From NCBI RefSeq assembly GCF_024171735.1, contig NZ_JAMTCH010000004.1, positions 248,001 to 312,000 on the forward strand: a DNA stretch of 64,000 nt, given 5' to 3'. Positions 8,447-21,760 of the stretch are shown piece after piece (position 1 is the first letter of the stretch; each line of letters starts with the position of its first letter). Origin of the DNA: Prauserella alba (lineage in GTDB: Bacteria; Actinomycetota; Actinomycetes; Mycobacteriales; Pseudonocardiaceae). Below the pieces are notes generated by a model. It was not told the origin of the DNA. It saw nothing but the letters and a program-made list of their open reading frames with translations, and did no database searches. The translations under genes and the position numbers were made by a program.

Positions 8447-8511
8447 GGCGTGGATTATGCCCCGCGCCACACCGAACGGCCCTCGCCCCGGCCACGGGCG
8501 TGACCTGGGTC

Positions 8512-8544
8512 GCTCTGCCGGGCCTCCCACCGGCCCGGCAGAGC
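8512..8544 (-). terminator. 13-bp stem-loop 3' of the Ddn-like gene
   Basis: GCTCTGCCGGGCC pairs perfectly with GGCCCGGCAGAGC around a 7-nt loop, 11 nt beyond the stop at 8556. Confidence 0.75.
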
Positions 8545-8555
8545 ATTCACGCAGG

Positions 8556-8969
8556 TCAGGACGGGTCGAGCAGTACGACGGGGATGTCGCGGTTGGTCTT
8601 GGCCCGGTAATCGTCGTAGGACGGCCACACCGCAGCCATCAGCGGCCACAACTCCGCCTTCTCCTCCGCGTTCGCGGTGCGGGCCACGGCATCGAACCGC
8701 TCGGCGCCGACCTGGACCTTCACGTGGGGCTCGGCGACCAGGTTCTTGTACCAACCGGGATGGTCGGGCGCACCGCCCTTGGACGCGACGACGACGTAGG
8801 AACCACCGTGCGACTGGTAGATCAGCGCCGACTTTCGCGGCTCCCCGGTCTTCCGCCCGGTGGTGGTGAGGACCAGCGTCGGTACCCCGTCCTGCCACAC
8901 GTGGCCGACCTCGCCGTCGGTCTCCTCGTACTTCCGAACGTGTTCGTCGCCGAACAGTACGTCGCTCAT
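8556..8969 (-). CDS. nitroreductase/deazaflavin (F420H2)-dependent Ddn-family protein
   Basis: 137 aa. It has the DUF385/Ddn pattern: [39 protein letters not shown] and a C-terminal [16 protein letters not shown]. Relatives in mycobacteria use F420H2 to reduce quinones and nitroimidazoles. The start is ATG 8969 with an AAGGGG-type SD. It is a single-gene unit with its own terminator. The physiological substrate is not evident. Confidence 0.85.
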
Positions 8970-9013
8970 CGTCGGCCCCTTCGTCGTGCGCCGGCTGGGT
9001 CGTCTGCTGACCG

Positions 9014-10015
9014 TCAGCCTAGGACGTCGGCGAGCAGCGCGCGGTCCACGTTGCCGCCGGAGACCACCACGACGGTGCGTCCGCGGGGCAACTCACCCGA
9101 CCGGTGGAGGTAGGCGGCGAGCGGCACCGCGCCGGATGGCTCGGCGATCAGCCGGTCGCGGTTGGCGAGGACCCGCATCGCGTCGCGGATCTCGTCCTCG
9201 GTGACGGTCACGATGCCGTCGAGGACGGTCTGCAGGTGCGCGAACGTCAGCTCCGACGGCTGCGAACGCAACCCGTCGGCGATCGTCCTGACCCGGTCCT
9301 CCACCGGCCACTCGACGATCTTCCCGGCCCTCAGGCTGTCGGCGGCGTCCGCAGCCAGCTCCGGCTCGACTCCGATCACGGCGGCGTTCGGGCAGAGCGC
9401 CTTCACCGCGGTGCCGATCCCCGAGGCGAGCCCTCCCCCGCTGATGGGGACGAGCACGAGCTCGACATCCGGAAGATCGTCGGCGATCTCGAGCCCGGCG
9501 GTCCCCTGACCGGCGATGATGTCGGGGTGGTCGAACGGTGGCACCAGCGCCGCGCCCAGCTCCTCGACGAGCCGGTAGGCCACCGACTCTCGCTGCCCGC
9601 TGGGCACGAGCACGACCTCGGCGCCGTACCTGCGTGTGCCCTCGACCTTCACCTGCGGCGTGTTCTCCGGCATCACGATGTGGGCAGCGACGCCGAGTCG
9701 CTGCGCCGCACACGCCACCGCCTGGGCGTGGTTGCCGCTCGAATACGCCACGACGCTCGGCGTCGCGCCGCTCTGCCCGTCAGCAACGCCCTGCCCGGCG
9801 GAGCCGGCGTCCCCGCGGGTTCGTTCGTCGAGTGCCGCGAGCGCGTTCACCGCGCCGCGGAGTTTGAACGCACCGATCGCCTGCAGGCTCTCGGGTTTCA
9901 GCCACAGCGGGCGATCGGCGTCGGCCCACGGTGCGGGCAGAAGCGGGGTACGCAGGACCTGGCCGCGGACACGGTCGGCGGCGGTGCGGATGTCGTCGAG
10001 CGAAACGAGCTGCAT
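9014..10015 (-). CDS. serine/threonine dehydratase, short PLP type
   Basis: 333 aa, fold type II PLP enzyme. The PLP lysine is Lys51 in GAFKLRGA; the phosphate-binding glycine loop is SGGGLASG; YSSGNHAQA is the substrate loop. There is no C-terminal ACT regulatory domain, so this is a catabolic-type threonine/serine dehydratase (or serine racemase-like) rather than biosynthetic IlvA. A Gly/Ala-rich insertion of about 25 residues follows the PLP helix. It starts 23 nt after the Gfo/Idh gene on the same strand, so it is probably the last gene of the LacI-controlled transport operon. The length excludes full IlvA. Confidence 0.85.
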   Translation of the reverse strand: MQLVSLDDIRTAADRVRGQVLRTPLLPAPWADADRPLWLKPESLQAIGAFKLRGAVNALAALDERTRGDAGSAGQGVADGQSGATPSVVAYSSGNHAQAVACAAQRLGVAAHIVMPENTPQVKVEGTRRYGAEVVLVPSGQRESVAYRLVEELGAALVPPFDHPDIIAGQGTAGLEIADDLPDVELVLVPISGGGLASGIGTAVKALCPNAAVIGVEPELAADAADSLRAGKIVEWPVEDRVRTIADGLRSQPSELTFAHLQTVLDGIVTVTEDEIRDAMRVLANRDRLIAEPSGAVPLAAYLHRSGELPRGRTVVVVSGGNVDRALLADVLG

Positions 10016-10038
10016 ACCCCGCAGTCTGCCCGTACCCG

Positions 10039-11193
10039 CTACAGCGCGAGCGTCGGGATCTCGACCCGGCGACCCTCCCGCGCCGACCGCAGGCCGAGTT
10101 CGGCGAGCTGGACACCCCGGGCCCCGGCGAGGAAGTCCCACGGGAAGGGCTCGTCGCCGGCCACGTGCCGCAGGAACATCTCCCACTGGACCTTGAACCC
10201 GTTGTCGAACTCGCCGTTGTCCGGAACCTCCTGCCACTGACCGCGGAAGTCCTCCGTGGCGGCCAGATCCGGGTTCCACACGGGTTTCGGCGTCATCGAG
10301 CGGTGCTGCACGCGGCAACGGCGCAGGCCGGCCACGGCGCTGCCCTCGGTGCCGTCGACCTGGAACTCGACGAGCTCGTCGCGGAACACCCGCGTCGTCC
10401 ACGACGAGTTCAGCTGCGCCACGATGCCGCCACCGAGCTCGAAGATGCCGTACGCCGCATCGTCCGCCGTGGCTTCGTACGTCCTGCCCTGCTCGTCCAC
10501 GCGTTTCGGGATGTGCGTGGCCGCAAGCGCTTGCACCGAGTGCACCGGCGCGATGATGTCCTCCAGCACGTAGCGCCAGTGGCAGAACATGTCGACGATG
10601 ATGCCGCCGCCGTCCTCGGCCCGGTAGTTCCAGGACGGACGCTGGGCCTCCTGCCAGTCGCCCTCGAACACCCAGTACCCGAACTCGCCGCGCACGGAGA
10701 GGATCTCACCGAAGAACCCGCCGTCGACGAGCCGCTTGAGTTTGCGCAGTCCGGGCAGGAAGAGCTTGTCCTGCACCACACCGACCTTCACACCCGCGTC
10801 GGCGGCGAGCCTGCCGAGTTCGAGCGCGCCCTCGGTGTCCTCGGCGATCGGCTTCTCGGTGTAGATGTGCAGGCCCGCGGCGACGGCCTTGCGCACGCCC
10901 TCGGCGCGCCTGCTGGTGACCTGTGCGTCGAAGTAGATCTCGGCGCCGGAGCGCAGCGCCTCGTCGAGATCCGTCGTCCACCGGTCCAGGCCGTGTTCCT
11001 TCGCGATCGCGGCGAGCTTCTGCTCGCTCCGCCCCACGAGGATCGGCTCCGGCCACAGCACGCTGCCGTCCGGCAGGGACAGTCCACCCTGTTCCCTGAT
11101 CGCCAGGATCGACCGGACGAGGTGCTGGCGGTAGCCCATCCGGCCCGTGACACCGTTCATCACGATCCCCACGGATCGCAGTTCGTTGACCAT
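10039..11193 (-). CDS. Gfo/Idh/MocA-family dehydrogenase
   Basis: 384 aa. N-terminal NAD(P) Rossmann fold (GVTGRMGY near residues 14-21); the catalytic-region motif EKPIAE lies near 112. The C-terminal beta-sheet domain carries the DGGGIIVDMFCHW stretch, with a likely catalytic His in FCHW. Members oxidise or reduce sugars, sugar acids and inositols, often at C3. It lies downstream of the ABC transporter genes in the same orientation and is functionally matched by the DUF993 and isomerase genes across the LacI promoter region. The substrate is not identified. Confidence 0.88.
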   Translation of the reverse strand: MVNELRSVGIVMNGVTGRMGYRQHLVRSILAIREQGGLSLPDGSVLWPEPILVGRSEQKLAAIAKEHGLDRWTTDLDEALRSGAEIYFDAQVTSRRAEGVRKAVAAGLHIYTEKPIAEDTEGALELGRLAADAGVKVGVVQDKLFLPGLRKLKRLVDGGFFGEILSVRGEFGYWVFEGDWQEAQRPSWNYRAEDGGGIIVDMFCHWRYVLEDIIAPVHSVQALAATHIPKRVDEQGRTYEATADDAAYGIFELGGGIVAQLNSSWTTRVFRDELVEFQVDGTEGSAVAGLRRCRVQHRSMTPKPVWNPDLAATEDFRGQWQEVPDNGEFDNGFKVQWEMFLRHVAGDEPFPWDFLAGARGVQLAELGLRSAREGRRVEIPTLAL

Positions 11194-11280
11194 GACGCCC
11201 TTTCTGAGGTTGACGTGCGAGTCGGACCGGCAGCGGTCACCGCGGCCGTCGACGTGGTTCGGTTCCTCGGACTCGGCCCG

Positions 11281-12057
11281 CTACTCGGCCGCTGCGGCCG
11301 CGCCGAGGTGGTCGCGGATGTGGCGGGTGGCCTTGGCGAACTCGGGTTCGGCCATCGTCGGGCCGTAGTCCCGCTCCACGGGAAGGTTCACGTCGACGAC
11401 ACCCGCGACCGTGCCCGGCCTTGCCGAGATCATCACGACCTGATCGGACAGGTAGACCGCCTCCGCGATCGAGTGCGTCACGAGCAGGACGGTCGTGCCC
11501 GTCTCCTGCCAGATGCGGCGCAGCTCGACGTTCATCTGCTCGCGGGTGAGGGCGTCGAGCGCGCCGAACGGCTCGTCCATCAGCAGCACCGGCGGACGGT
11601 GCAGCAACGCCCGGCACAGCGCGACGCGCTGCTGCATGCCGCCGGACAGCTCGTGCGGAAGCGCGTCCTCGAAGCCCGACAGCCCGGTCATCTCGATCAG
11701 CTCGTCGGCGCGGGCGGCCGCCTCCTTCGCAGGCATCTTCCGCATCTCCGCCTGCAGCAGGATGTTCTTGCGGGCCGAACGCCACTCGAGCAGCGCCGCC
11801 TTCTGGAAGACGTAGCCGATGTCCTTGCGCGGTCCGTTCACCGGTTCGCCGAACAGCCGCACGTCGCCCGTCGACGCCGGTAGCAACCCCGATGACAGCT
11901 TGAGCAGTGTCGACTTGCCGCATCCCGACGGCCCGACGATGGAGACGAACTCTCCCGGTTCCACGCGCATCGTCACGTCGGTCAACGCCGTCACGTCGCG
12001 CTTCTTACTGCGGAACCGCACCGTCACGTCGTCGATTTCGACCGCGTAGCCAGCCAT
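11281..12057 (-). CDS. ABC transporter ATP-binding protein (NMT1/SsuB/TauB type)
   Basis: 258 aa. Walker A GPSGCGKST (about 41-49), Q-loop in YVFQKAALLEW, signature LSGGMQQR, Walker B VLLMDEPFGALD, switch His in VTHS. It resembles SsuB/TauB/ThiZ ATPases that pair with NMT1-type binding proteins. It is the third gene of the leftward operon, 95 nt after the binding-protein gene; that gap holds a strong hairpin. Confidence 0.92.
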   Translation of the reverse strand: MAGYAVEIDDVTVRFRSKKRDVTALTDVTMRVEPGEFVSIVGPSGCGKSTLLKLSSGLLPASTGDVRLFGEPVNGPRKDIGYVFQKAALLEWRSARKNILLQAEMRKMPAKEAAARADELIEMTGLSGFEDALPHELSGGMQQRVALCRALLHRPPVLLMDEPFGALDALTREQMNVELRRIWQETGTTVLLVTHSIAEAVYLSDQVVMISARPGTVAGVVDVNLPVERDYGPTMAEPEFAKATRHIRDHLGAAAAAE

Positions 12058-12105
12058 GTGCCTTCCCCACTCCTCGGGCCTGTTCTCGGGTGGCGGTTGT
12101 ACGGG

Positions 12106-12150
12106 GCGATGCGTGGCGGCCGCGCCGGGTGCGCGCCCGCCACGCGTCGC
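12106..12150 (-). terminator. intercistronic 14-bp stem-loop between binding protein and ATPase genes
   Basis: Arms 12106-12119 and 12137-12150 pair over 14 bp with one wobble, 2 nt after the binding-protein stop. It probably attenuates readthrough or protects the upstream mRNA so that more binding protein than ATPase is made. Confidence 0.65.
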
Positions 12151-12152
12151 CG

Positions 12153-13175
12153 TTACTCCTGGGCGGCGAGGTCGCGCTCCCAGTACTCACCGGGCTCGCC
12201 TGCCTCCTCGATGACACCCGCGTCGGAGAAGATGCCGATGGTCTTCTTCCAGTCCTCCGGCGTGTTGACACCGGGACGCTCACCCTCGGTGGCATCGGTG
12301 TGCAGCAGTTCGAGCGTCTCGCCGAACTGCTCGGTCAGTACTTCCTTCGACGGCAGCTGTTCCGAGGCACCTTCCATCGCGTCGACCGCAGCCTGGCGGT
12401 CCTGTCCCGCCTGTTCCCACGCCTCGGTGGTCGCGGCCACCATGCGCTGGGCGAGGTCACCGCGATCGTCGAGCACCTCCTGCGCGGTGAGCAGGCCGTT
12501 GCTGTAGAAGTTCAGCCCGTGTTCCGCCCACCGCAGGTACGACACGTCCTTGCCCGACTTCTCCTGCATCGTCGGTCCCTGGTCGGTCGCGTAGCCGAGC
12601 AACGCGTCGGTCTGGTCCTGCATGACCGCGGCCATCTTCCCCGCGGCGTCGGTGTTCTGCACCTGGACGTCCTGTTCGGACAGTCCGTTGGCTTCGAGGA
12701 ACAGCGGGAACACGTTCGTCAGCGCGTCGCCTGCCGTGCTGGCGACCGTCTTGCCCTTGAGATCGTCTGGCGAGGAGATGCCCTCCTCCGAGAAGAACTG
12801 CACGGACGAGGGCGTCGTCTGCAGGTAGACGCCGATGCTCTTGACGTCGAGTCCCTGTGACACGCCCGCCAGCAGCGCGGGTGTGTCGGCCCAGCCGAAG
12901 TCGGTCTGCCCCGCCGCGGTCGCCTGCACGGTCTTCTGCGACCCCTGGCCCGCGCGGATGTCCAGCGAGATCCCGTGTTCCTCGTAGATCCCCTGCTGTT
13001 TGCCGTAGTAGAACGGCGCGTGTTCGCCGTACGGGTACCAGTTGAGGGTGAGGGTGACCTTGTCCAGCTCCTCCCCCGCGGAGTTGGTGACCGTCTCGCC
13101 TTCCGATCCGCCGCAGCCTGCGGCCAGCAGCAGGGCTGTGGCGGCGGTGCCTGCGGTGAGTGCACGTAGCTTCAT
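12153..13175 (-). CDS. ABC transporter substrate-binding lipoprotein, NMT1/THI5-like
   Basis: 340 aa. It begins MKLRALTAGTAATALL followed by lipobox LAAGC, so it is a membrane-anchored lipoprotein. The mature part has the NMT1/THI5 pattern: LTLNWYPYGEHAPFYYGKQQ, then a DFGWADTPALLAG ligand loop. Such proteins bind thiamine pyrimidine precursors, sulfonates, riboflavin or aromatics. Here the neighbours are sugar enzymes, so the ligand is open. The start is ATG 13175 after a GGAGAG SD; the frame is open further upstream but not supported. Confidence 0.9.
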   Translation of the reverse strand: MKLRALTAGTAATALLLAAGCGGSEGETVTNSAGEELDKVTLTLNWYPYGEHAPFYYGKQQGIYEEHGISLDIRAGQGSQKTVQATAAGQTDFGWADTPALLAGVSQGLDVKSIGVYLQTTPSSVQFFSEEGISSPDDLKGKTVASTAGDALTNVFPLFLEANGLSEQDVQVQNTDAAGKMAAVMQDQTDALLGYATDQGPTMQEKSGKDVSYLRWAEHGLNFYSNGLLTAQEVLDDRGDLAQRMVAATTEAWEQAGQDRQAAVDAMEGASEQLPSKEVLTEQFGETLELLHTDATEGERPGVNTPEDWKKTIGIFSDAGVIEEAGEPGEYWERDLAAQE

Positions 13176-13213
13176 TGCTCTCCTTCGACTCACTGGGCTC
13201 TCGTGGATAGGGA

Positions 13214-14095
13214 TCAGATGGTGGTGCTCGCGCCCTCGTCGCGGCGGCTGGCGTGCCAGGGCAGCAGGAGCTGCTCGAGCCATTCCACGATCACGAACAG
13301 CAGCACGCCGAGCAGCGACATGATCAACAGGCCGGCGAACAGCACCGGGGTGTCGAGGTTGCCGTTGGCCTGCAGGATCACGAATCCGAGGCCGGCGTTG
13401 GCACCGACGAACTCGCCGACGACGGCACCCGTGACGGCCATCGTCGCGGCCACCTTCAGGCCCGAGAACAGGTGCGGCAGCGACGCCGGGAACCGGATCT
13501 TCCAGAACGTCTGCCCCGACTTCGCGCCCATCGTCGAGGACAGCTGGAGCATCTCCGGGTCCACGGATTTCAGTCCCGTGACCATGGAGATGACGACGGG
13601 GAAGAACGCCATCAGCACGGCGACCAGGATCTTCGGCCCGAGGCCGAAGCCGAGCCACACGACGAACAGCGGCGCGATGGCGATCTTCGGGATGACCTGC
13701 GCGAACAGCAGCAGCGGGTACAGCGTCTTCTCCAGCGTCGACGACTGCACCATGGCCACGGCAGCGACCACACCGACCGCGATGGCGATGACGAATCCGA
13801 GGACGGTCTCGTACGTCGTGGTCCAGGTGTGTTCCCAGAAGTACTCGGGCCGCTGCGCGATGGCGTCGAACGTGTCCCCTGGCGAGGGCACCAGGTAGGG
13901 CTCGACGAGCTCGGCCGCCGTGACGCCCCACCAGGCCACGAACAGGGCCGCGAGCAGCGCGAACGGCCGCCACGAACGTTCCAGGAAACCGCCCAGTCGC
14001 TGCCCGAGTCCGGGACGGCTGCGTTCGGCGACGCCGGAGGCTTCGCCCGCTCGCTCCCGCTGCCCGGCCCGCGCGGACTGTGTGTGCGTGACCAT
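13214..14095 (-). CDS. ABC transporter permease (SsuC/TauC/ThiX type)
   Basis: 293 aa. About six hydrophobic segments follow a charged N-terminal tail of about 35 residues. The EAA loop (LQLSSTMGAKSGQTFWKIRFPAS) contacts the ATPase. The start is ATG 14095, with GGAGGG 4-9 nt upstream; longer in-frame starts would run over the operators. It is the first gene of the leftward operon and diverges from lacI. Confidence 0.92.
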   Translation of the reverse strand: MVTHTQSARAGQRERAGEASGVAERSRPGLGQRLGGFLERSWRPFALLAALFVAWWGVTAAELVEPYLVPSPGDTFDAIAQRPEYFWEHTWTTTYETVLGFVIAIAVGVVAAVAMVQSSTLEKTLYPLLLFAQVIPKIAIAPLFVVWLGFGLGPKILVAVLMAFFPVVISMVTGLKSVDPEMLQLSSTMGAKSGQTFWKIRFPASLPHLFSGLKVAATMAVTGAVVGEFVGANAGLGFVILQANGNLDTPVLFAGLLIMSLLGVLLFVIVEWLEQLLLPWHASRRDEGASTTI

Positions 14096-14160
14096 GACCC
14101 TCCGTTCACCGTCGAACGTGTCGCCACCAAGAACCTGATCGAGACCCGGCACACGTTGTG

Positions 14161-14187
14161 TGAATGCGCTTTCTGAATGCGCTTTCA
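14161..14187. promoter_or_regulatory. paired overlapping LacI-type operators in the divergent promoter
   Basis: Two 14-bp near-palindromes, TGAATGCGCTTTCT (14161-14174) and TGAATGCGCTTTCA (14174-14187), overlap by one base and are 13 bp apart. They are 66 nt from the permease start and 113 nt from the lacI start. The core fits the LacI/GalR-family consensus, so LacI probably represses both operons. Confidence 0.8.
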
Positions 14188-14299
14188 CGCTAGGATGTGG
14201 ACAGCGTATGCAGACCGGACAGAACCGGTCAAGCGTCGGGCGCCGAACCGAGGGGCCTACCCTGGCCGGTGCTCATCGGACGAGCTGGGAGAGTCGCGA

Positions 14300-15337
14300 A
14301 TGGACGATCGGCCGCACGTCACGCTCGAAGACGTCGCGCGGGAGGCACAGGTCTCCCTCGCCACGGCCTCGCGCGCACTGAACGGAACCACAAAAGTACG
14401 CTCCGACCTGCGGGAACGTGTGCTGGCAGCAGCCAACCAGCTCGCCTACACGCCCAACGCACACGCGCAGGCGCTTGCGGGCGGCGCGCACCGCACGGTC
14501 GGCGTCATCTGTCACGACGTCAGCGACCCGTACTTCGCGGGCATCTCGCGGGGGGTGATGCGCGCGGCCGACGAGGCGGGCCTGCTCGTGATGCTGGCGA
14601 GTACCTTCCGCGATCCCCAGAAGGAGATCGCCTACATCTCGATGCTCCGCGCCCAGCGGGCCTCGGCGATCCTGCTGGTCGGCTCGGGTTTCGAGGACCG
14701 GGAATGGGAGCGCGCGCTCGCGGCCGAGATCGAGCCGTACCAGCGCGGCGGTGGCCAGGTCGCGGTGGTCAGCAGGCATCGCACGCTGCGTGTCGACAGT
14801 GTGCAGCCCGAGAACCGGGACGGCGCCGCGGAGCTCGCCCGCACGCTCACCGCGCAGGGACACCGCCGCTTCGCCGTACTGGCCGGCCCGCGGGCACTGA
14901 CCACGGTCGTCGACCGGCTTCGCGGCTTCCGCGACGGCCTCACGGAGGCTGGTGTCGAGCTGGCCGAGAGCCACATCGTCGAAGCGGCGTTCACCCGCGA
15001 CGGCGGGTACGCCGCGATGTCCGAGCTGCTGGCGCGCGGGCTCGACGCCACCTGTGTGTTCGCGGTGACCGACGTGATGGCCATGGGCGCGCTCGCGGCG
15101 CTGCGGGAATCGGGCAGGTCCGTGCCCGAGGACGTCTCGCTCGCCGGCTTCGACGACATCCCCGTGGTCCGCGACCTGGCTCCCCCGCTGACGACGGTGG
15201 CGCTGCCCCTCGAGGAGCTGGGCGAGAAGGTCATGGAGCTGGCCGTGCGTGACAACCGCGGCAAGCGCAGCCGCATTCTCCGCATGCCGGGAACCGTCGT
15301 CGTCCGCGAGAGCACCATCCCGCCTGCCGGCAGCTGA
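14300..15337 (+). CDS. LacI/GalR-family transcriptional regulator
   Basis: 345 aa. N-terminal HTH (VTLEDVAREAQVSLATASRALNG, hinge LAYTPNAHAQALAGG) plus a periplasmic-binding-protein-like effector domain from about residue 60. The ATG at 14300 has GGGAGAG 7 nt upstream; the in-frame extension to 14177 would read through the operators and lacks a domain. Operators at 14161-14187 and 15379-15405 flank the gene, so it should control itself, the transport operon and the DUF993 operon. The effector is presumably the imported compound or its first product. Confidence 0.92.
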   Translation: MDDRPHVTLEDVAREAQVSLATASRALNGTTKVRSDLRERVLAAANQLAYTPNAHAQALAGGAHRTVGVICHDVSDPYFAGISRGVMRAADEAGLLVMLASTFRDPQKEIAYISMLRAQRASAILLVGSGFEDREWERALAAEIEPYQRGGGQVAVVSRHRTLRVDSVQPENRDGAAELARTLTAQGHRRFAVLAGPRALTTVVDRLRGFRDGLTEAGVELAESHIVEAAFTRDGGYAAMSELLARGLDATCVFAVTDVMAMGALAALRESGRSVPEDVSLAGFDDIPVVRDLAPPLTTVALPLEELGEKVMELAVRDNRGKRSRILRMPGTVVVRESTIPPAGS

Positions 15338-15378
15338 CGCGGCGCCTTGTCGCGTGCGGCGACGGCGTCTAAGGTGTG

Positions 15379-15405
15379 TGAAAACGCTTTCTACAAGCGC
15401 TTTCA
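15379..15405. promoter_or_regulatory. second paired LacI-type operator, before the DUF993 operon
   Basis: TGAAAACGCTTTCT (15379-15392) and TACAAGCGCTTTCA (15392-15405) have the same 13-bp offset as the first site. They lie 140 nt upstream of the DUF993 start. Confidence 0.8.
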
Positions 15406-15544
15406 GCGCACGTCGCAGGGGTGGGCACGTGCCGCGAGGGCAGGCCCGGCCTGCCGTGGCCCACCGTTGTCACCCGCCGGGTGCCCGAGTCCGGAGTCGT
15501 CCGCACCGAACCCGTGGCCGACGTCCGGCCACAAAGGAGTGATC

Positions 15545-16714
15545 ATGAGCTCGTTGCTGCTTCCGTCGCGCGACCGCACGCTCGAACAGTGGTCCCCGAC
15601 CGGAACGCCGATCCGCCCACCGGCCGCGGCACCGGCGAAACCGCCGACCTCGCGCACGGCCTACGCTGCCGCGCACGTGGTGGCCGACGCAGCCTGCCCC
15701 GCCGACCCGGCACACGTCGTCGAACTCGACTGGGAGGCGACACTCGCCTTCCGTGAACACCTGTGGTCGTGCGGCCTCGGGGTGGCCGAGGCCATGGACA
15801 CCGCACAGCGTGGCATGGGCCTGGACTGGGCGGCGACGCAGGAACTCATCCGCCGCACCGGCGCGGCGGCCCGCGCCGGAAGCCGGCCGTGGGTCGCGGG
15901 CGTCGGCACCGACCAGCTCCCTGCCGGCCCCGCCACGATCGACGACGTCGTCGGAGCGTGGCGGGAGCAGCTCGATCTGGTAGCAGGCGAGGGAGCCGTA
16001 CCGGTGGTCATGGCGAGCCGTGCCCTCGCCGCCGCCGCCGGCGGTCCCGAGCTCTACCGCGACGCCTACGGCAAGCTCCTGTCCGCCGCGGACGGGCCGG
16101 TCCTGCTGCACTGGCTGGGTGAGCCGTTCGACCCGGCGCTGGCGGGTTACTGGGGCCACTCGGACGTACGCGCGGCCGCCCGCGAGCTCGCCGGGCTCTG
16201 CGCAGAACATGCCTCGACCGTCGCCGGGGTGAAGGTGTCGGTGCTCGATGCCGACGTCGAGCGGGAGTTCCGGCGCGCACTGCCGGAGGGAGTCGCGTGC
16301 TACACGGGCGACGACTTCAACTACCCGGAACTCATCGCGGGCGACGAGCACGGGCACAGCGAGGCACTGCTCGGGATCTTCGACCCGATCGCGCCGGTGG
16401 CAGGCGCGGCGCTCACCGCGCTCGACGACGGCGACCACGCCCGTTTCCACGGGCTGCTGGCGCCGACCGTGCCGCTCTCCCGCGAGATCTTCCGGGCTCC
16501 GACGCCGTACTACAAGGTGGGGGTGGTCTTCCTGGCGTACCTGAACGGCCATCAGGATCACTTCCGCATGGTCGGCGGGCTCGAGTCGGCGCGGTCGATC
16601 ACCCATCTCGCGGACGTGCTGCGGCTCGCCGATCGCGCCGGGCTGCTGGCCGACCCCGAGCTTGCCGTCTCCCGGATGCGCTCGCTGCTCGACACCGCGG
16701 GGGTGCGCTGGTGA
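15545..16714 (+). CDS. DUF993 family protein (DapA/aldolase-like TIM barrel)
   Basis: 389 aa. Recognised as the DUF993 group, annotated as dihydrodipicolinate synthase/N-acetylneuraminate lyase-like. Visible: PWVAGVGTDQL, GPVLLHWLGEPFDP, and AGVKVSVLDAD with a lysine at the place expected for a Schiff-base aldolase. The last is inference. ATG 15545 has AAAGGAG 7 nt upstream. It is the first gene of a two-gene operon behind a paired LacI operator; the next gene overlaps by 4 nt. A carbon-carbon cleavage step in sugar or sugar-acid breakdown is a plausible role; no reaction is known to me. Confidence 0.82.
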   Translation: MSSLLLPSRDRTLEQWSPTGTPIRPPAAAPAKPPTSRTAYAAAHVVADAACPADPAHVVELDWEATLAFREHLWSCGLGVAEAMDTAQRGMGLDWAATQELIRRTGAAARAGSRPWVAGVGTDQLPAGPATIDDVVGAWREQLDLVAGEGAVPVVMASRALAAAAGGPELYRDAYGKLLSAADGPVLLHWLGEPFDPALAGYWGHSDVRAAARELAGLCAEHASTVAGVKVSVLDADVEREFRRALPEGVACYTGDDFNYPELIAGDEHGHSEALLGIFDPIAPVAGAALTALDDGDHARFHGLLAPTVPLSREIFRAPTPYYKVGVVFLAYLNGHQDHFRMVGGLESARSITHLADVLRLADRAGLLADPELAVSRMRSLLDTAGVRW

Positions 16715-17526
16715 ACCGTCTCAGCCTGAATCAGATCACCACGAAGCGTTGGTCCCTGCCCGAGGCCGTGCGCGGTTGCGCGGATCAGGGCGTCGAGTGG
16801 ATCGGCCTGTGGCGGGACAAGATCGCCGAGGTCGGCGCCGCCGAGACGGCGCGGTTGCTTGCCGAGCACGGCGTACGCGCCTCATCGGTGTGCCGCGGCG
16901 GCTTTCTCACCGGCGTGACACCTGAGGGCGACTCGGCCGACGGGGTCGCCATGACCAGGGAGGCGATCGACGAGACCGCCACGGTCGGTGCGGATGTGCT
17001 GGTGCTCGTCGTCGGCGGGATCGCGGACGGGGACCTGGCGGCGTCCCGGCAGCGCGTCGCCGATGCGGTCGGCGAACTCGCCCCGTACGCCCGGGAGCGC
17101 GGGGTACGGCTCGCGCTCGAGCCACTGCATCCCATGCAGTGCGCCGAACGGTCCGTGCTGTCGACGCTCGACCAGGCGCTGGAGATCGCCCAGGAGCACC
17201 CGGCCGGTGCGGTCGGCGTGATCGTCGACGAGTTCCACGTGTGGTGGGACCCGCGGATCGAGGAGTCGATCGCGAAGGCCGCAGGACGGATCGCCGGCTT
17301 TCACGTCTGCGACCAGCAGGTGCCGATCACCGACGGGCTGATGGCACGCTCGCTGCCCGGCACCGGGCCGGTCGACCACCGCTGGTTGCGATCCTGTGTC
17401 GAATCGGCGGGCTACGACGGGCCCATCGAGGTCGAGGTGTTCGATGCCGACCTGTGGCAGCAGCCGGGCGACGAGGTGCTGCGGCAGGTGATCAGCGCCT
17501 ACGAGGAGCACGTGGCACCCCGGTGA
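16711..17526 (+). CDS. sugar phosphate isomerase/epimerase (AP endonuclease family 2 TIM barrel)
   Basis: 271 aa. The start GTG overlaps the DUF993 stop (GTGA), indicating translational coupling. Metal-ligand motifs of the xylose isomerase-like barrel are visible: LALEPLHP (Glu), VIVDEFHVWWD (Asp/His) and IEVEVFD (Glu). Relatives isomerise or epimerise ketoses, inosose and 3-keto-sugars. Together with the Gfo/Idh dehydrogenase it suggests a keto-sugar route. A stem-loop or operator follows 11 nt after the stop. Confidence 0.88.
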   Translation: MNRLSLNQITTKRWSLPEAVRGCADQGVEWIGLWRDKIAEVGAAETARLLAEHGVRASSVCRGGFLTGVTPEGDSADGVAMTREAIDETATVGADVLVLVVGGIADGDLAASRQRVADAVGELAPYARERGVRLALEPLHPMQCAERSVLSTLDQALEIAQEHPAGAVGVIVDEFHVWWDPRIEESIAKAAGRIAGFHVCDQQVPITDGLMARSLPGTGPVDHRWLRSCVESAGYDGPIEVEVFDADLWQQPGDEVLRQVISAYEEHVAPR

Positions 17527-17537
17527 GCCGGCCCGCG

Positions 17538-17569
17538 GCGCCGACTTCGAGTTAGGTGGAAGTCGGCGC
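17538..17569. terminator. 11-bp perfect inverted repeat between isomerase and soxR
   Basis: GCGCCGACTTC (17538-17548) pairs with GAAGTCGGCGC (17559-17569) around 10 nt. It is placed as a terminator of the isomerase operon, but its centre is 40 nt before soxR, so it could instead be the SoxR operator; both readings fit. Confidence 0.55.
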
Positions 17570-17580
17570 GCGGGTTCGGT

Positions 17581-17586
17581 TACCGT
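17581..17586 (+). promoter_or_regulatory. -10 box TACCGT of soxR (leaderless)
   Basis: TACCGT is 6 nt before the GTG start; no SD is present. Confidence 0.55.
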
Positions 17587-17592
17587 GGCGGA

Positions 17593-18060
17593 GTGACCAC
17601 CAGGCTCGCCGATCATCTCACGATCGGGCAGGTCGCTCAGCGCAGCGGCGTGCCGCACACCGCGTTGCGGTTCTACGAGGACCGCGGCCTCATCTCGTCG
17701 CAGCGTTCCAGCGGCAACCAACGACGCTACCCGCGTTCGGTCCTGCGCCGCATCGCCTTCATCCGCGCCGCGCAACGTGTCGGGCTGAGCCTCGACGAGA
17801 TCGGCTCCGCGCTCGACACGTTGCCCCACGATCACGCGCCGACGAAGGCCGACTGGGCACGACTCTCCCGGGACTGGCGCGACGAGCTCGACGCCCGTAT
17901 CGACGCCCTGCAACGCCTCCGCGACCAGCTGACGGGCTGTGTCGGCTGCGGCTGCCTGTCGCTGAAGGCCTGCGGCCTCCACAACATCGATGACCGGCTC
18001 TCGCAGTTCGGCCCCGGAGCACCGTTGCTGAAACCCGCCGGCGAGGGCGGCATCGAATAG
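17593..18060 (+). CDS. soxR: SoxR, redox-sensitive MerR-family activator with [2Fe-2S] cluster
   Basis: 155 aa. MerR HTH (TIGQVAQRSGVPHTALRFYEDRG) in the first 35 residues, dimerisation helix near 85-113, then the diagnostic cysteines C116, C119, C121 and C127 (CVGCGC, five residues, C). In actinobacteria SoxR senses redox-cycling compounds and activates a few oxidoreductases or exporters. No obvious target gene is adjacent: the downstream gene is convergent. The GTG start is leaderless by the TACCGT rule. A palindrome at 17538-17569 may be an autoregulatory site. Confidence 0.95.
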   Translation: MTTRLADHLTIGQVAQRSGVPHTALRFYEDRGLISSQRSSGNQRRYPRSVLRRIAFIRAAQRVGLSLDEIGSALDTLPHDHAPTKADWARLSRDWRDELDARIDALQRLRDQLTGCVGCGCLSLKACGLHNIDDRLSQFGPGAPLLKPAGEGGIE

Positions 18061-18079
18061 CTGCCGTGCTGGCGTCGGC

Positions 18080-18121
18080 GCATGTCCTGCGTTCAGCACC
18101 GCGTGTCCTGCGCCCGCGCCC
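18080..18121 (-). repeat. 21-bp tandem array 4 (two copies)
   Basis: Units at 18080 and 18101 (core CGTGTCCTGCG, the complement of arrays 3 and 5). They fill the convergent gap between soxR (stop 18060) and the phosphodiesterase (stop 18125). Confidence 0.85.
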
Positions 18122-18124
18122 TGA

Positions 18125-19255
18125 TCAGCTCACGTTGTCGGCCACGGCCAGCGGAACGAGCTGCTCCGCGGCGGTGAACGAACCGTGGTGTCCCGTCAGC
18201 GACGTCTCGGCGGGCTCGGCCGTCGCGCTCACGATGCCGCAGCGATCGCGGGCGGCCGCGACGACGTCGCCGATCCGCGAACGCACCCGATCGCCGACGT
18301 GCGGACCGAACCAGCCTGCCTCGACGGCCTGGTCACGCGAGGCGACCCAGGCCCGCTCGCCGAGCACTTCCCGCCAGGCCGCCAGCACGTCGTCGGCCGC
18401 GCCGGGCTCGGCGTAGACGTGGCGGGCGCGTACCTCACCGCCCAGCGCACGCACCCCCTCGCGCAGCGCGGGCATCGCGTCGACGTCGACGGTCTCCCCG
18501 ATCCGCACCATCCCGTGGTCGGCCACCACCGCCAGTACCGCACCGGAGGGCAGCCCCTCGACGACGGATTCGACGAGCCGGTCGACCTGGCGCAACTGCA
18601 TGCGCCACGCCGTCGACCCGGGCCCGTACAGATGGCCGAGTTTGTCGAGTTCGCTGTGGTAGCCGTAGACGAACGCGCGCTCCGGTCGCAGCGCCTCGGT
18701 CACCCGCATCGCGAGATCCCCCAGCGCGTGCACGCCGACGTACCGGCCGCCCCGCAGCACCGCCCTGGTCAACGGCGACCCGTCGAACTGCGCCGCCGAC
18801 ACCACGCTCGTCGCGACGCCGGCCGCGGCGGCACGCTCGAATGTCGTCGGCAGCGGCTGGACGTCCTCGGCGGCGAGCTCGTCCGACAGGTCGCGCCCAC
18901 CGGGGTGGCTGCACCAGCGCAGCGCGTTCACCACGCCCGTGCCCGGCACCTCGAAGCTGTAGCCCGCCATGCCGTGCTCCCCCGAGGGCGAGCCGGTGCC
19001 GATGGCGGCCAACCCCGCGGCCGTCGTCGCCGGGTAGCCGACCTGCAGCGGCCTGCGGCACAGCTCGAGCAGCACCGGCGCGCAGTCCGCGTGCTCGTGC
19101 AGCAGCTCCCAGCCGAGACCGTCGACGAGCAGCACGCACGACCGGGTCGCTTCCGGCAGTTCCGGCACCGAACGGGCGAAGCCCGGCACTCCCGACGCAG
19201 CCAACATCGTCGGCACGATCTGCGAGAGATGCGGATGATCCATGCCGCCCAGCAT
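18125..19255 (-). CDS. type I phosphodiesterase/nucleotide pyrophosphatase, alkaline phosphatase superfamily
   Basis: 376 aa. Metal-site motifs of the superfamily are present: VLLVDGLGWELL (first Asp), GYPATTAAGLAAIGTG (catalytic Thr), GYHSELDKLGHLYGPGS (Asp/His), VVADHGM (Asp-His) and a late GHHGS (His). No signal peptide is seen, so it is cytoplasmic. Start chosen at ATG 19255; ATG 19243 (MDHPHL) is equally possible. A terminator separates it from dhaM upstream. Substrate unknown. Confidence 0.8.
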   Translation of the reverse strand: MLGGMDHPHLSQIVPTMLAASGVPGFARSVPELPEATRSCVLLVDGLGWELLHEHADCAPVLLELCRRPLQVGYPATTAAGLAAIGTGSPSGEHGMAGYSFEVPGTGVVNALRWCSHPGGRDLSDELAAEDVQPLPTTFERAAAAGVATSVVSAAQFDGSPLTRAVLRGGRYVGVHALGDLAMRVTEALRPERAFVYGYHSELDKLGHLYGPGSTAWRMQLRQVDRLVESVVEGLPSGAVLAVVADHGMVRIGETVDVDAMPALREGVRALGGEVRARHVYAEPGAADDVLAAWREVLGERAWVASRDQAVEAGWFGPHVGDRVRSRIGDVVAAARDRCGIVSATAEPAETSLTGHHGSFTAAEQLVPLAVADNVS

Positions 19256-19422: not shown

Positions 19423-20133
19423 CTACTCGTCGAAGTTGCGTTCGGCCAGAGCGGTGATGCGCGCGACCGCGTCCTCGGCCTGCGCACCCTTCGCCGTCAC
19501 GACGACCGTGTCGCCCTTCCGCGCGGTCAGCGACATCAGCGAGAACACACTCTTGGCGTCCGCGTCGGTGTCGCCGAGGGAGACCTGCACGTCGGCGTCG
19601 ACATCGGCGATGCTCCGGGCGAGCAGGGCCGCGGGCCGGGCGTGCAGCCCGACCTCGTTGCCGAGGGTGATCTCCGCGCGCGCCCCTGCTCCGGATTCCG
19701 GCTCTGCGCCGTGCGCGCCGGCCGCCTCGGCGGTGTCGGCCACTTCGGACCGGCCTGCCGCCGCACGGGCCGCGTCCGCCACCGCGGCACGGTCACCGCC
19801 GCCCTGCGCCGCGACCGCGGCCGCGATCGCACCCTCGACGAGCGGGGCGTCGACGACCACCGCCGTCTCCGGCTCCGGCAGCGATTCCACGGCCATATCC
19901 GCGGTCATCTGCGCGCTTCCCAGGTCGTAGAGCACGACCACGCCCGCCTCCGCCGCCGCCTCGGTCACGGCGGCGAGCACGGCCTCGAAATCGGTGCCGA
20001 TCCCACCGTCGGGAAGCCCGCCTGCGGGCTTCACCGTCACGTCCGGAGCCATCTGCGCGGCGACCTCCGCGACCCCGTCGGCCAGCCTGCCGCTGTGCGA
20101 CACGACCACCAGCCCGACCAGTTCCCCGCTCAT
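19423..20133 (-). CDS. dhaM: DhaM, PTS EIIA-HPr phosphocarrier of dihydroxyacetone kinase
   Basis: 236 aa, two domains. The EIIA(Dha) domain (1-125) has its phosphorylatable His13 in SHSGRLADG. An Ala/Glu linker (125-152) joins an HPr domain with His164 in GLHARPAALLA and the serine region at K194-S195. It relays phosphate from EI/PEP to DhaL-bound ADP. There is no EI-like domain, unlike E. coli DhaM. The ATG overlaps the dhaL stop by 4 nt (ATGA). Confidence 0.93.
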   Translation of the reverse strand: MSGELVGLVVVSHSGRLADGVAEVAAQMAPDVTVKPAGGLPDGGIGTDFEAVLAAVTEAAAEAGVVVLYDLGSAQMTADMAVESLPEPETAVVVDAPLVEGAIAAAVAAQGGGDRAAVADAARAAAGRSEVADTAEAAGAHGAEPESGAGARAEITLGNEVGLHARPAALLARSIADVDADVQVSLGDTDADAKSVFSLMSLTARKGDTVVVTAKGAQAEDAVARITALAERNFDE

Positions 20134-20759
20134 CGCGACGCCTCCGCGAACGACCGCAGCAGCAGCGCCGTGGACGTCGCGCCGGGATCGGCGTGACCGA
20201 CACTGCGCTCGCCCAGATACGACGCGCGCCCCTTGCGAGCGGTCAGCGGCACCGTCGAATCAGCACCCTCCTTCGCCGCATCGGCGGCGGCCGTGAGCAC
20301 CGCGGCGACATTCTCACCGTCGGCGTGCGCCCGCTCCGCGGCCTCGACCGCGGGCTCGAGCGCGTCGACCATCGTGGCGTCGCCGACCTCGGCCTTGCCG
20401 CGGGCGACCACACCGTCCAGCGCGGCCCGCAGCCCCGCCGCGACCGCGGCGGCATCCAGTTCGGACGCATCGCCGAGCTTCGTCGCCGCACGCAGGAACG
20501 CCGTGCCGTACAGCGGCCCGGCCGCTCCGCCGACCTTCGAGATCAGCGTCGTCGCCGCGACCTTCAGAACCGCACCGGGCGTCTCCGGGACCCCCGCGTC
20601 CAACGCCGCCAACACCGCCGCGAACCCGCGGTCGAGGTTCTCCCCGTGGTCGGCATCGCCGATGGCACGGTCCAGCTCGGTCAGTTCGGTTTTGTGCTCG
20701 GCGACGGTCGCCGCACCCGCGCGCAGCACGCCGGCAGCCCGTTCGGCGTTGCAGCCCAT
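20130..20759 (-). CDS. dhaL: DhaL, ADP-binding subunit of dihydroxyacetone kinase
   Basis: 209 aa. DhaL pattern: Mg-nucleotide motif IGDADHGENLDRGF (about 30-43), GGAAGPLYGTAFLRA, GDATMVDAL, and C-terminal TARKGRASYLGERSVGHADPGATS. It holds ADP/ATP, is rephosphorylated by DhaM and phosphorylates DhaK-bound dihydroxyacetone. Start ATG 20759 overlaps the dhaK stop (TGATG). A longer in-frame start inside dhaK was rejected. Confidence 0.94.
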   Translation of the reverse strand: MGCNAERAAGVLRAGAATVAEHKTELTELDRAIGDADHGENLDRGFAAVLAALDAGVPETPGAVLKVAATTLISKVGGAAGPLYGTAFLRAATKLGDASELDAAAVAAGLRAALDGVVARGKAEVGDATMVDALEPAVEAAERAHADGENVAAVLTAAADAAKEGADSTVPLTARKGRASYLGERSVGHADPGATSTALLLRSFAEASR

Positions 20760-21760
20760 CAGGCCCCCCACCGCAGCGACGGCGTGTGCACCGGGGCGTC
20801 CCACAGCTCGGTCAGCTCGTCGTCCATCCGCAACAGCGTCAGGCTGATCCCCTGCATCTCCAGGCTCGTCACGTACGGGCCGACGAGCCGGCGCGTCACG
20901 CGGATGCCCCGGTCGGCGAGCAGCCGCTCGGCGATCCCGTGGGCCAGATACGTCTCCATCGGCGGTGTGCCGCCCATGGAGTTCGTCAGCAGCAGTACGT
21001 CGTCGCCCTCGGCGAACGGCAGGTCGTCGATCACAGCCGTGATCATCCGCTCGACGAGTGCGTCGGCCGGCTCGGCGGCGATCCGCTCGCGGCCCGGTTC
21101 ACCGTGGATGCCGATGCCGAACTCGATCTCGTCTTCTCCGAGGTCGAAGCTCGGCTCCCCGGCGTGCGGCACGGTCGGCGGCGAAAGCGCCACCCCGATC
21201 GACCGCACCTGGCCGACCACGCGCCGCGCCAACGCCTCCACGGCGTCGAGCCCGTCGCCGCGTGCGGCCGCCGCGCCGACGATCTTCTCCAGCGGTACGG
21301 TGCCGCCGACTCCGCGCCGACCCGCGGTGAAGGTCGAGTCGGCCACCGCGACGTCGTCGTCGATCACCACGCTGCGCACGTCCAGCCCCTCGGCGGCGGC
21401 CAGCTCGGCGGCCGTCTCGAAGTTCAGTACGTCGCCGGTGTAGTTCTTCACCACCAGCAGCGCACCGGCGTGCCCCGTCGTCGCCGCGACCGCCGCCTGC
21501 ACCGCGTCCGGCGTCGGCGAGGTGAACACCGGGCCGGGAACGGCCGCATCGAGCATTCCCGCGCCGACGAACCCGGTGTGCAACGGCTCGTGGCCGGAAC
21601 CGCCGCCCGAGATCACGGCCACCTTGCCGGAGACCGGCGCGTCGGCGCGCACCACATGGTTCGGGTCGTAGGTCACGCGCACCAGGTCCGCGTGCGCGGC
21701 TTCCAGTCCTCGGAGCGATTCGGCGACCACCGCCGCCGGATCGTTGATGATCTTCTTCAC
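20759..21760 (-). CDS. dhaK: DhaK, dihydroxyacetone-binding subunit
   Basis: 333 aa. GGGSGHEPLHTGFVG forms the substrate pocket. The covalent hemiaminal His is His219 in FGIGIHGEPG, matching E. coli His218. The C-terminal lid is LTNSMGGTPPMETY. It starts at GTG 21760 with GTGGGA upstream. It is the first gene of dhaKLM, which turns dihydroxyacetone into DHAP at the expense of PEP. A terminator just upstream isolates the operon from the symporter unit. Confidence 0.95.
   Translation of the reverse strand: MKKIINDPAAVVAESLRGLEAAHADLVRVTYDPNHVVRADAPVSGKVAVISGGGSGHEPLHTGFVGAGMLDAAVPGPVFTSPTPDAVQAAVAATTGHAGALLVVKNYTGDVLNFETAAELAAAEGLDVRSVVIDDDVAVADSTFTAGRRGVGGTVPLEKIVGAAAARGDGLDAVEALARRVVGQVRSIGVALSPPTVPHAGEPSFDLGEDEIEFGIGIHGEPGRERIAAEPADALVERMITAVIDDLPFAEGDDVLLLTNSMGGTPPMETYLAHGIAERLLADRGIRVTRRLVGPYVTSLEMQGISLTLLRMDDELTELWDAPVHTPSLRWGA

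Follow-up and report, generated by a model that had tools for sequence, protein, structure and literature searches.

The genome of Prauserella alba carries, in a 64-kb stretch of contig NZ_JAMTCH010000004.1 (positions 248,001 to 312,000; hereafter the window, in whose numbering the positions below are given), a divergent cluster of seven genes that includes a protein of the DUF993 family. We propose, with a probability of about one half, that this cluster is a catabolic regulon under LacI control whose substrate is an acidic, sugar-like compound, and that it comprises import, oxidation, isomerisation and Schiff-base cleavage, with conversion of a C3 part to glycerate; the substrate, the order of the steps and the cleavage are what we infer here.

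On the minus strand, the genes are transcribed in the order permease, binding protein, ATPase and oxidoreductase: an ATP-binding cassette (ABC) permease (13214–14095; PF00528, 119 bits), an NMT1/THI5-type binding lipoprotein of a subfamily tied to DUF993 loci (12153–13175; PF09084, 149 bits), an ABC ATPase of the taurine/nitrate/sulfonate type (11281–12057; PF00005, 115 bits) and a Gfo/Idh/MocA oxidoreductase of 384 amino acids (10039–11193; PF22725, 82 bits; PF02894, 60; PF01408, 26.5), hereafter Gfo/Idh. Divergent from these, on the plus strand, lie a LacI-family regulator (14300–15337; PF00356, 60 bits; PF13377, 122 bits), the DUF993 protein with its predicted Schiff-base lysine K230 (15545–16714; PF06187, 561 bits over almost its full length) and a TIM-barrel protein of the AP_endonuc_2 sugar isomerase/epimerase type (16711–17526; PF01261, 121 bits), hereafter the isomerase, whose start overlaps the DUF993 stop by 4 bp. 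An earlier note on this DNA had listed six genes at 10039–17526; every gene that it named is there, and their number is seven. The ATPase scores best against the NCBIfam models SaoA (220 bits) and taurine ATPase (209 bits), both under the cut-off. Gfo/Idh, the isomerase and DUF993 reach none of the curated NCBIfam functional models, DUF993 having no NCBIfam match of any kind, and a promoter and terminator scan gave no signal over chance level.

Paired palindromes of the LacI type are found in the divergent intergenic stretch, between the importer operon and lacI (14161–14187), and 5′ of the DUF993 gene (15379–15405). A whole-genome search with TGAAARCGCTTTCA, allowing at most two mismatches, returned 16 matches over both strands, against 11 for the reversed-pattern control. 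Half of the 16 are the four sites of this locus, each read on both strands, and matches with one mismatch occur at this locus only. Two of the four other places with two mismatches were inspected (three sites, on C4 and C2), and the neighbouring genes there have no visible relation.

The operators recur at related loci. All 25 loci whose LacI protein scores at least 450 bits against that of the window have an operator site within 6 kb, compared with 8 of the 30 loci at 250–450 bits; some loci probably come from the same strains (the DUF993 proteins of L036 and L178 are identical), so the 25 are not all independent. The same operator pair is present in Saccharomonospora and at further loci of the order. 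Seven genomes of the same family have a LacI–DUF993–isomerase locus without Gfo/Idh, and in all seven an orthologue of Gfo/Idh (69–71% identical) is encoded elsewhere. Each of these genomes holds two to four exact copies of AGAAAGCGCTTTCW, the reversed control giving 0 in all seven; one copy sits 30–50 bases 5′ of the DUF993 match in every genome, and in six of the seven a copy lies at most 100 bases upstream of the unlinked Gfo/Idh gene. The exception, G111, has two such Gfo/Idh genes, with the nearest site 2.8 kb upstream of one of them, before another operon. G083, G090 and G111 also carry AGAAAGCGCTTTCW sites without a visible link to the gene set.

These genes are linked both by the operators that they have in common and by where they lie, and the importer operon and the DUF993 operon are thus predicted to be a single LacI regulon, in which LacI would bind the operators and repress both operons until an inducer appears. 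The earlier note had already proposed such co-regulation and had made the NMT1-type importer a member of the regulon. Both proposals are borne out, the first by LacI-type operators before both operons that recur at the loci of LacI orthologues, the second by the operators and by linkage to DUF993.

More operator copies are present in three loci from same-family genomes (L252, L255 and L256). In L252 and L256, one copy precedes two genes, a second one of the Gfo/Idh type and a conserved one without a label; in L252, the Gfo/Idh gene of the enzyme trio is found downstream within the same stretch.

A constant core with exchangeable importers

DUF993 is widespread: named hits come at least from actinobacteria, bacilli, proteobacteria and a chloroflexus-type bacterium, and some lie on symbiosis plasmids. 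The scan of named genomes took the best 80 of at least 591 relatives (596 matched stretches), from actinobacteria, bacilli, Thermosporothrix and proteobacteria. Together with plasmid loci and loci of the order, these make up the 156 loci compared, a set that counts the window and also L155, which duplicates L035; sets of 155 loci are without the window and keep L155. Three candidates (L169, L170 and L204) were excluded as not being DUF993 loci. Within the order, DUF993 is present in 66 of 200 genomes, and 57 loci were fetched among the 65 DUF993 genomes other than the window's. The 14 control genomes, Thermotoga maritima among them, have no DUF993. Maps made with a simple gene caller are rough, and counts are based on tblastn.

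The isomerase gene lies within 9.5 kb of DUF993 in 150 of the 156 loci (window and one duplicate counted), Gfo/Idh in 128 and LacI in 88. DUF993 and the isomerase are the core, the dehydrogenase is usual and the importers exchange.

A homologue of the binding protein (E ≤ 1e-30) was found in 23 of the 200 genomes of the order, taken as the same 200 as in the DUF993 survey: 22 of the 66 with DUF993 and 1 of the 134 without (Fisher P 3e-11, kinship ignored). The two genes are at most 5 kb apart in 20 of these 22 genomes, or in 19 of 21 without the window. Importer homologues of this kind are also encoded next to the core, both across several families of the order and in Bradyrhizobium, Microvirga, Azospirillum and one Rhizobium. 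Other DUF993 loci have importers of the CUT1, CUT2 or tripartite tricarboxylate (TTT) class. On a quick tree built from 154 DUF993 proteins, without L155 and without L065, which is short, the NMT1 label changes 11 times, seven of them forced by starred branches. NMT1 and CUT1 importers, present in 17 and 15 of the 57 loci of the order, are never found together there (P ~0.002, kinship ignored).

We infer from this exchange that the cargo of the different importer classes is the same or similar. An acidic carbohydrate would suit both the carbohydrate and the carboxylate importers. If true, this reading broadens the presumed cargo of NMT1-type binding proteins. The earlier note had predicted import of a sugar-like compound, which is reasonable given the loci with CUT1 and CUT2 importers in place of NMT1; the part that shifts is the kind of compound, since TTT importers, genes resembling acid-sugar dehydratases, KdgD and glycerate kinases at other loci make an acidic substrate that yields a C3 product of the glycerate type likelier than a plain sugar.

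A protein of 460–500 amino acids (for example L053:7393–8781) is encoded close to the core in 12 of 118 loci, accompanied there by importers of the NMT1, TTT or CUT1 class; the L121 annotation calls it enolase C-terminal domain-like, and two examples scanned have no Pfam match.

Predicted chemistry and the fate of the carbon

DUF993 has a TIM-barrel fold of the dihydrodipicolinate synthase (DHDPS) type, and K230, invariant in 16 of 16 DUF993 proteins, aligns with the Schiff-base lysine on strand 6 that is invariant in the DHDPS profile A2. H189 occupies the position of the invariant catalytic tyrosine of A2 on strand 5, so that the tyrosine itself is missing. The profile alignment begins past the region of the GTTGE-type motif, which binds pyruvate in the DHDPS superfamily. 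From that superfamily (PF00701) DUF993 differs in being about 100 residues longer, in forming a separate Pfam family and in having histidine for the catalytic tyrosine. A homologue, SMc04132, has had a solved structure since 2012 (4dnh). The 'aldolase-like' label given to DUF993 in the earlier note fits this fold, that of class I aldolases and dehydratases, and its lysine.

The closest solved chain to Gfo/Idh is 3oqb (518 bits), named only as an oxidoreductase, followed by a scyllo-inositol dehydrogenase at 55 bits. The isomerase matches 7vpf (283 bits), 3qc0 and 3ju2 (SMc04130; 197 bits each) and, at 35 bits, IolI; its best model is the 5-keto-L-gluconate epimerase IolO. Inositol (IolG), levoglucosan and IolO identities were set aside, the scores lying well under the model cut-offs: 45.7 bits against 355 for inositol 2-dehydrogenase IolG and 45 against 650 for levoglucosan dehydrogenase with Gfo/Idh, and 51 against 300 for IolO with the isomerase. 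Gfo/Idh enzymes carry out NAD(P)-dependent oxidation of hydroxyls, and the AP_endonuc_2 isomerases are metal-dependent.

In the proposed pathway, the substrate would be a sugar acid or the glycoside of a hydroxy acid, taken in by the NMT1-type ABC importer, as linkage and importer swapping suggest. Gfo/Idh would oxidise one hydroxyl with NAD(P), and the TIM-barrel isomerase would shift or epimerise the carbonyl, both roles resting on family knowledge and their order being conjectural. Lys230 of DUF993, placed by alignment and fold, may then form a Schiff base, and the enzyme would cut the carbon chain in a retro-aldol-type step. One C3 fragment would become glycerate and enter glycolysis through glycerate kinase, a gene for which lies beside the core in some related loci. 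The earlier note had put forward such steps too, with oxidation (perhaps to a 3-keto form), isomerisation and C–C cleavage as predictions.

In 25 of 155 loci, a glycerate kinase gene lies no more than 9.5 kb from DUF993; two families are represented, the PF02595 (GlxK) type in 19 loci and a second type, which we take to be MOFRL, in 6. The GlxK-type gene is immediately downstream on the same strand in 13 of the 19. These kinases accompany both Gfo/Idh-type and short-chain dehydrogenase/reductase (SDR)-type loci, with NMT1, CUT1 and other importers; family identities here, as for GH3 and similar families, were checked on examples with family models. Two kinase families for one substrate suggest that glycerate is a true intermediate; three classes of glycerate kinase are described in the excerpted text of PMC2063504. 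Other neighbours also concern acid sugars. A muconate-cycloisomerase-like gene of the enolase superfamily adjoins LacI in several NMT1-type loci, Nocardiopsis-type loci contain galactarate-dehydratase-like (GalrD) genes and KdgD (the latter in 8 of 118 loci), and 2-hydroxyacid dehydrogenases are encoded at three Paenibacillus loci, one Rhizobium locus and one Glaciihabitans locus.

A more specific form of the proposal, which we hold only tentatively and consider doubtful, makes DUF993 a novel type of class I aldolase acting on an unphosphorylated keto-hexonate, such as 5-ketogluconate or an epimer, with a 3+3 split into a fragment of the tartronate-semialdehyde or hydroxypyruvate type and dihydroxyacetone. 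Dihydroxyacetone kinase (DhaK–DhaL) at this locus and glycerate kinases in relatives would each take one half, and the split, if true, would lead from sugar acids to glycerate and dihydroxyacetone by a phosphate-free route, the substrate arriving through an NMT1-class importer of a subfamily that has turned to acidic carbohydrates. The DhaK–DhaL genes of the window (19423–21760, minus strand; over the cut-offs) lie about 2–4 kb beyond the isomerase gene, with a third gene taken for DhaM. Dihydroxyacetone kinase genes lie about 4 kb beyond the isomerase gene in L153, and in three Gracilibacillus loci Dha homologues lie at most 6.5 kb from DUF993, within a glycerol cluster. Since DhaKL(M) is rarely close to DUF993 (5 of 156 loci, in two lineages) and belongs to a glycerol cluster in Gracilibacillus, its presence here would suit dihydroxyacetone as the second product and is only suggestive.

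Several observations weigh against the pathway as proposed. K230 is placed by a profile alignment of modest strength (probability 56%, E 1e-4), and the Schiff-base enzymes of the DHDPS fold include dehydratases, so that C–C cleavage is not implied. No glycerate kinase is nearby in 130 of the 155 loci, nor at the locus of the window, the genome having two PF02595 genes elsewhere; part of the 19 GlxK-type matches are weak (about 100 bits). The muconate-cycloisomerase-like and galactarate-dehydratase-like genes, KdgD and the coenzyme A (CoA) genes that neighbour DUF993 at other loci are absent at the locus of the window. On the side of the importer, 91 of the 156 loci lack all four types tested, each detected with few query proteins; the exclusion of NMT1 and CUT1 is not significant over 155 loci (P 0.32), and two Microvirga loci have both. 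The binding protein has the NMT1/THI5 domain and fold, its closest folds being thiamine-precursor and thiamin binders and then sulfonate binders, with no carbohydrate binder among the 50 fold matches listed.

Competing explanations

DUF993 could be a dehydratase rather than a C–C lyase, because Schiff-base sugar-acid dehydratases have the same fold. Acting through a Schiff base as a dehydratase or hydratase, in the manner of KdgD or L-2-keto-3-deoxyarabonate dehydratase, it would dehydrate the oxidised sugar acid, a possibility that we take seriously while thinking it unlikely. The Foldseek matches of DUF993 include two L-2-keto-3-deoxyarabonate dehydratases (3fkk and 7c0c), the hexarate enzymes KdgD and GalrD are encoded at some of its loci, and His189 replaces the DHDPS tyrosine. 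KdgD adjoins DUF993 in the Nocardiopsis-type loci, however, so DUF993 is not simply a replacement for KdgD there, and the neighbouring glycerate kinases favour a C3 product.

A 3-keto-glycoside pathway of the levoglucosan or C-glycoside type seems rather unlikely. In this scheme, Gfo/Idh would produce a 3-keto sugar, the isomerase-like protein would release the aglycone by β-elimination and DUF993 would act on the freed keto sugar. The enzyme types are alike in the levoglucosan pathway, for which the excerpted text of PMC7676230 mentions no DHDPS-type protein. Near DUF993 in Streptomyces and Kitasatospora, a GH3 glycosidase (16 loci) and a second AP_endonuc_2 protein (19 loci) are encoded, one example of each having been checked; the GH3 cluster is confined to these two genera among the loci compared. 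The score of Gfo/Idh against the levoglucosan dehydrogenase model, far under the cut-off, also speaks against it.

Catabolism of a cyclitol or a carbocyclic acid resembling inositol or shikimate, with the ring cleaved by DUF993, is improbable. The closest characterised relatives or models (scyllo-inositol dehydrogenase, IolI and IolO) do come from this chemistry, and L168 has a shikimate-dehydrogenase-like gene, a CoA-transferase, a crotonase, an SDR and an amidohydrolase beside the core and an NMT1 importer. The IolG and IolO scores are nevertheless far under their cut-offs, and T. maritima, which has an IolG–IolO inositol route, is one of the control genomes without DUF993. The cluster in L168 (1354–14061 of that locus) holds these genes together with Gfo/Idh, DUF993, the isomerase and LacI.

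It is more improbable still that DUF993 takes part in a CoA-linked cleavage of a β-keto acid to glyceryl-CoA or glycerate, similar to oxidative deoxyribonate catabolism. Such a role is brought to mind by loci on rhizobial, Paracoccus and Roseobacter-type plasmids that have subsets of SDR, acyl-CoA dehydrogenase, CoA-transferase, crotonase, electron-transfer flavoprotein (ETF) and glycerate kinase genes, yet a CoA-transferase is near DUF993 in only 12 of 155 loci, in 1 of the 127 with a Gfo/Idh of the window's type, and not at the locus of the window. The plasmid clusters themselves (L112, L118 and L123–L126) surround DUF993 and the isomerase, the latter not annotated in L112, and their varying gene subsets also take in aldo/keto reductases.

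That the importer serves a thiamine precursor and is linked to sugar genes by accident, an alternative raised in the earlier note, is favoured by the fold comparison, in which thiamine-precursor binders are the nearest solved relatives of the binding protein, and is disfavoured by context to the point of being very improbable: an Rfam search of 8500–19000 found no RNA family, so no TPP (thiamine pyrophosphate) riboswitch at the locus, the three TPP riboswitches of the genome are all more than 380 kb away, linkage to DUF993 recurs across the families and genera named above, and an invariant lysine of the binding protein aligns with the glutamate of 3ix1 within the GFEL segment.

Known systems and neighbouring genes

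Hexarates are catabolised through KdgD, or through an aldolase and glycerate kinase (GarD–GarL–GarR–GarK). Some DUF993 loci resemble these systems in their PF02595 glycerate kinases, acid-sugar dehydratase-like genes and KdgD; they differ in the DUF993–isomerase core with Gfo/Idh, and most loci, that of the window included, are without hexarate genes.

The Bacillus smithii levoglucosan pathway (LgdA, LgdB1, LgdB2 and LgdC) comprises, in the excerpted text of PMC7676230, a dehydrogenase and a Gfo/Idh enzyme together with two proteins that carry a sugar phosphate isomerase annotation. It is like the present locus in combining a dehydrogenase, isomerase-annotated proteins and a Gfo/Idh enzyme on a keto sugar, and unlike it in that neither DUF993 nor an NMT1 importer is mentioned in that text. 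The oxidative deoxyribonate pathway shares keto-acid oxidation, cleavage, a glycerate kinase and, in some versions, CoA genes, whereas the excerpted text of PMC6365646 mentions neither the isomerase nor DUF993. Among characterised systems, these two pathways come nearest, by logic and not by membership.

In Sinorhizobium meliloti, the region SMc04130–SMc04135 includes the solved homologues SMc04130 (3ju2) and SMc04132 (4dnh). The excerpt of PMC12542648 tabulates SMc04132, SMc04133 and SMc04135 in a section on PhaR-regulated expression; there SMc04133 is entered as a putative oxidoreductase, SMc04135 appears as the binding component of an ABC system for amino acids or peptides, and no function is assigned. 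The SMc04135 entry sets the region apart from the present locus, the two having been compared through this listing and the structures.

The earlier note could not name the pathway, and we found none published: Creative Commons-licensed full text in PubMed Central returned no functional study of DUF993/PF06187, 4DNH, 3OQB, 3JU2 or the S. meliloti locus tags, and the excerpted text of a xylan proteome paper (PMC12772271) does not say what DUF993 or its partners do. Solved homologues exist for each of the three core enzymes (3oqb for Gfo/Idh; 4dnh for DUF993; 3ju2, 3qc0 and 7vpf for the isomerase), and none with an assigned function was found. What is new here is the evidence for a regulon, the constant core, the exchange of importers and the likely glycerate outlet, which narrow the search for a substrate to acidic sugar-like compounds.

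At the left edge of the cluster, a PALP-type dehydratase gene (9014–10015, minus strand) starts 23 bp beyond the stop codon of Gfo/Idh and may be co-transcribed with it. Its best NCBIfam model is threo-3-hydroxyaspartate ammonia-lyase (296 bits against a cut-off of 452). It was considered as a core member and rejected, since such a gene adjoins Gfo/Idh only in L039, L153 and L154. A KdgD label in L172 and open reading frames opposite DUF993 or the isomerase were taken for artefacts of the simple gene caller. On the other side, 3′ of the isomerase gene, lies soxR (17593–18060, plus strand; 209 bits, above the cut-off), and this position after the isomerase gene is kept in the related genomes L035, L039, L153 and L154.

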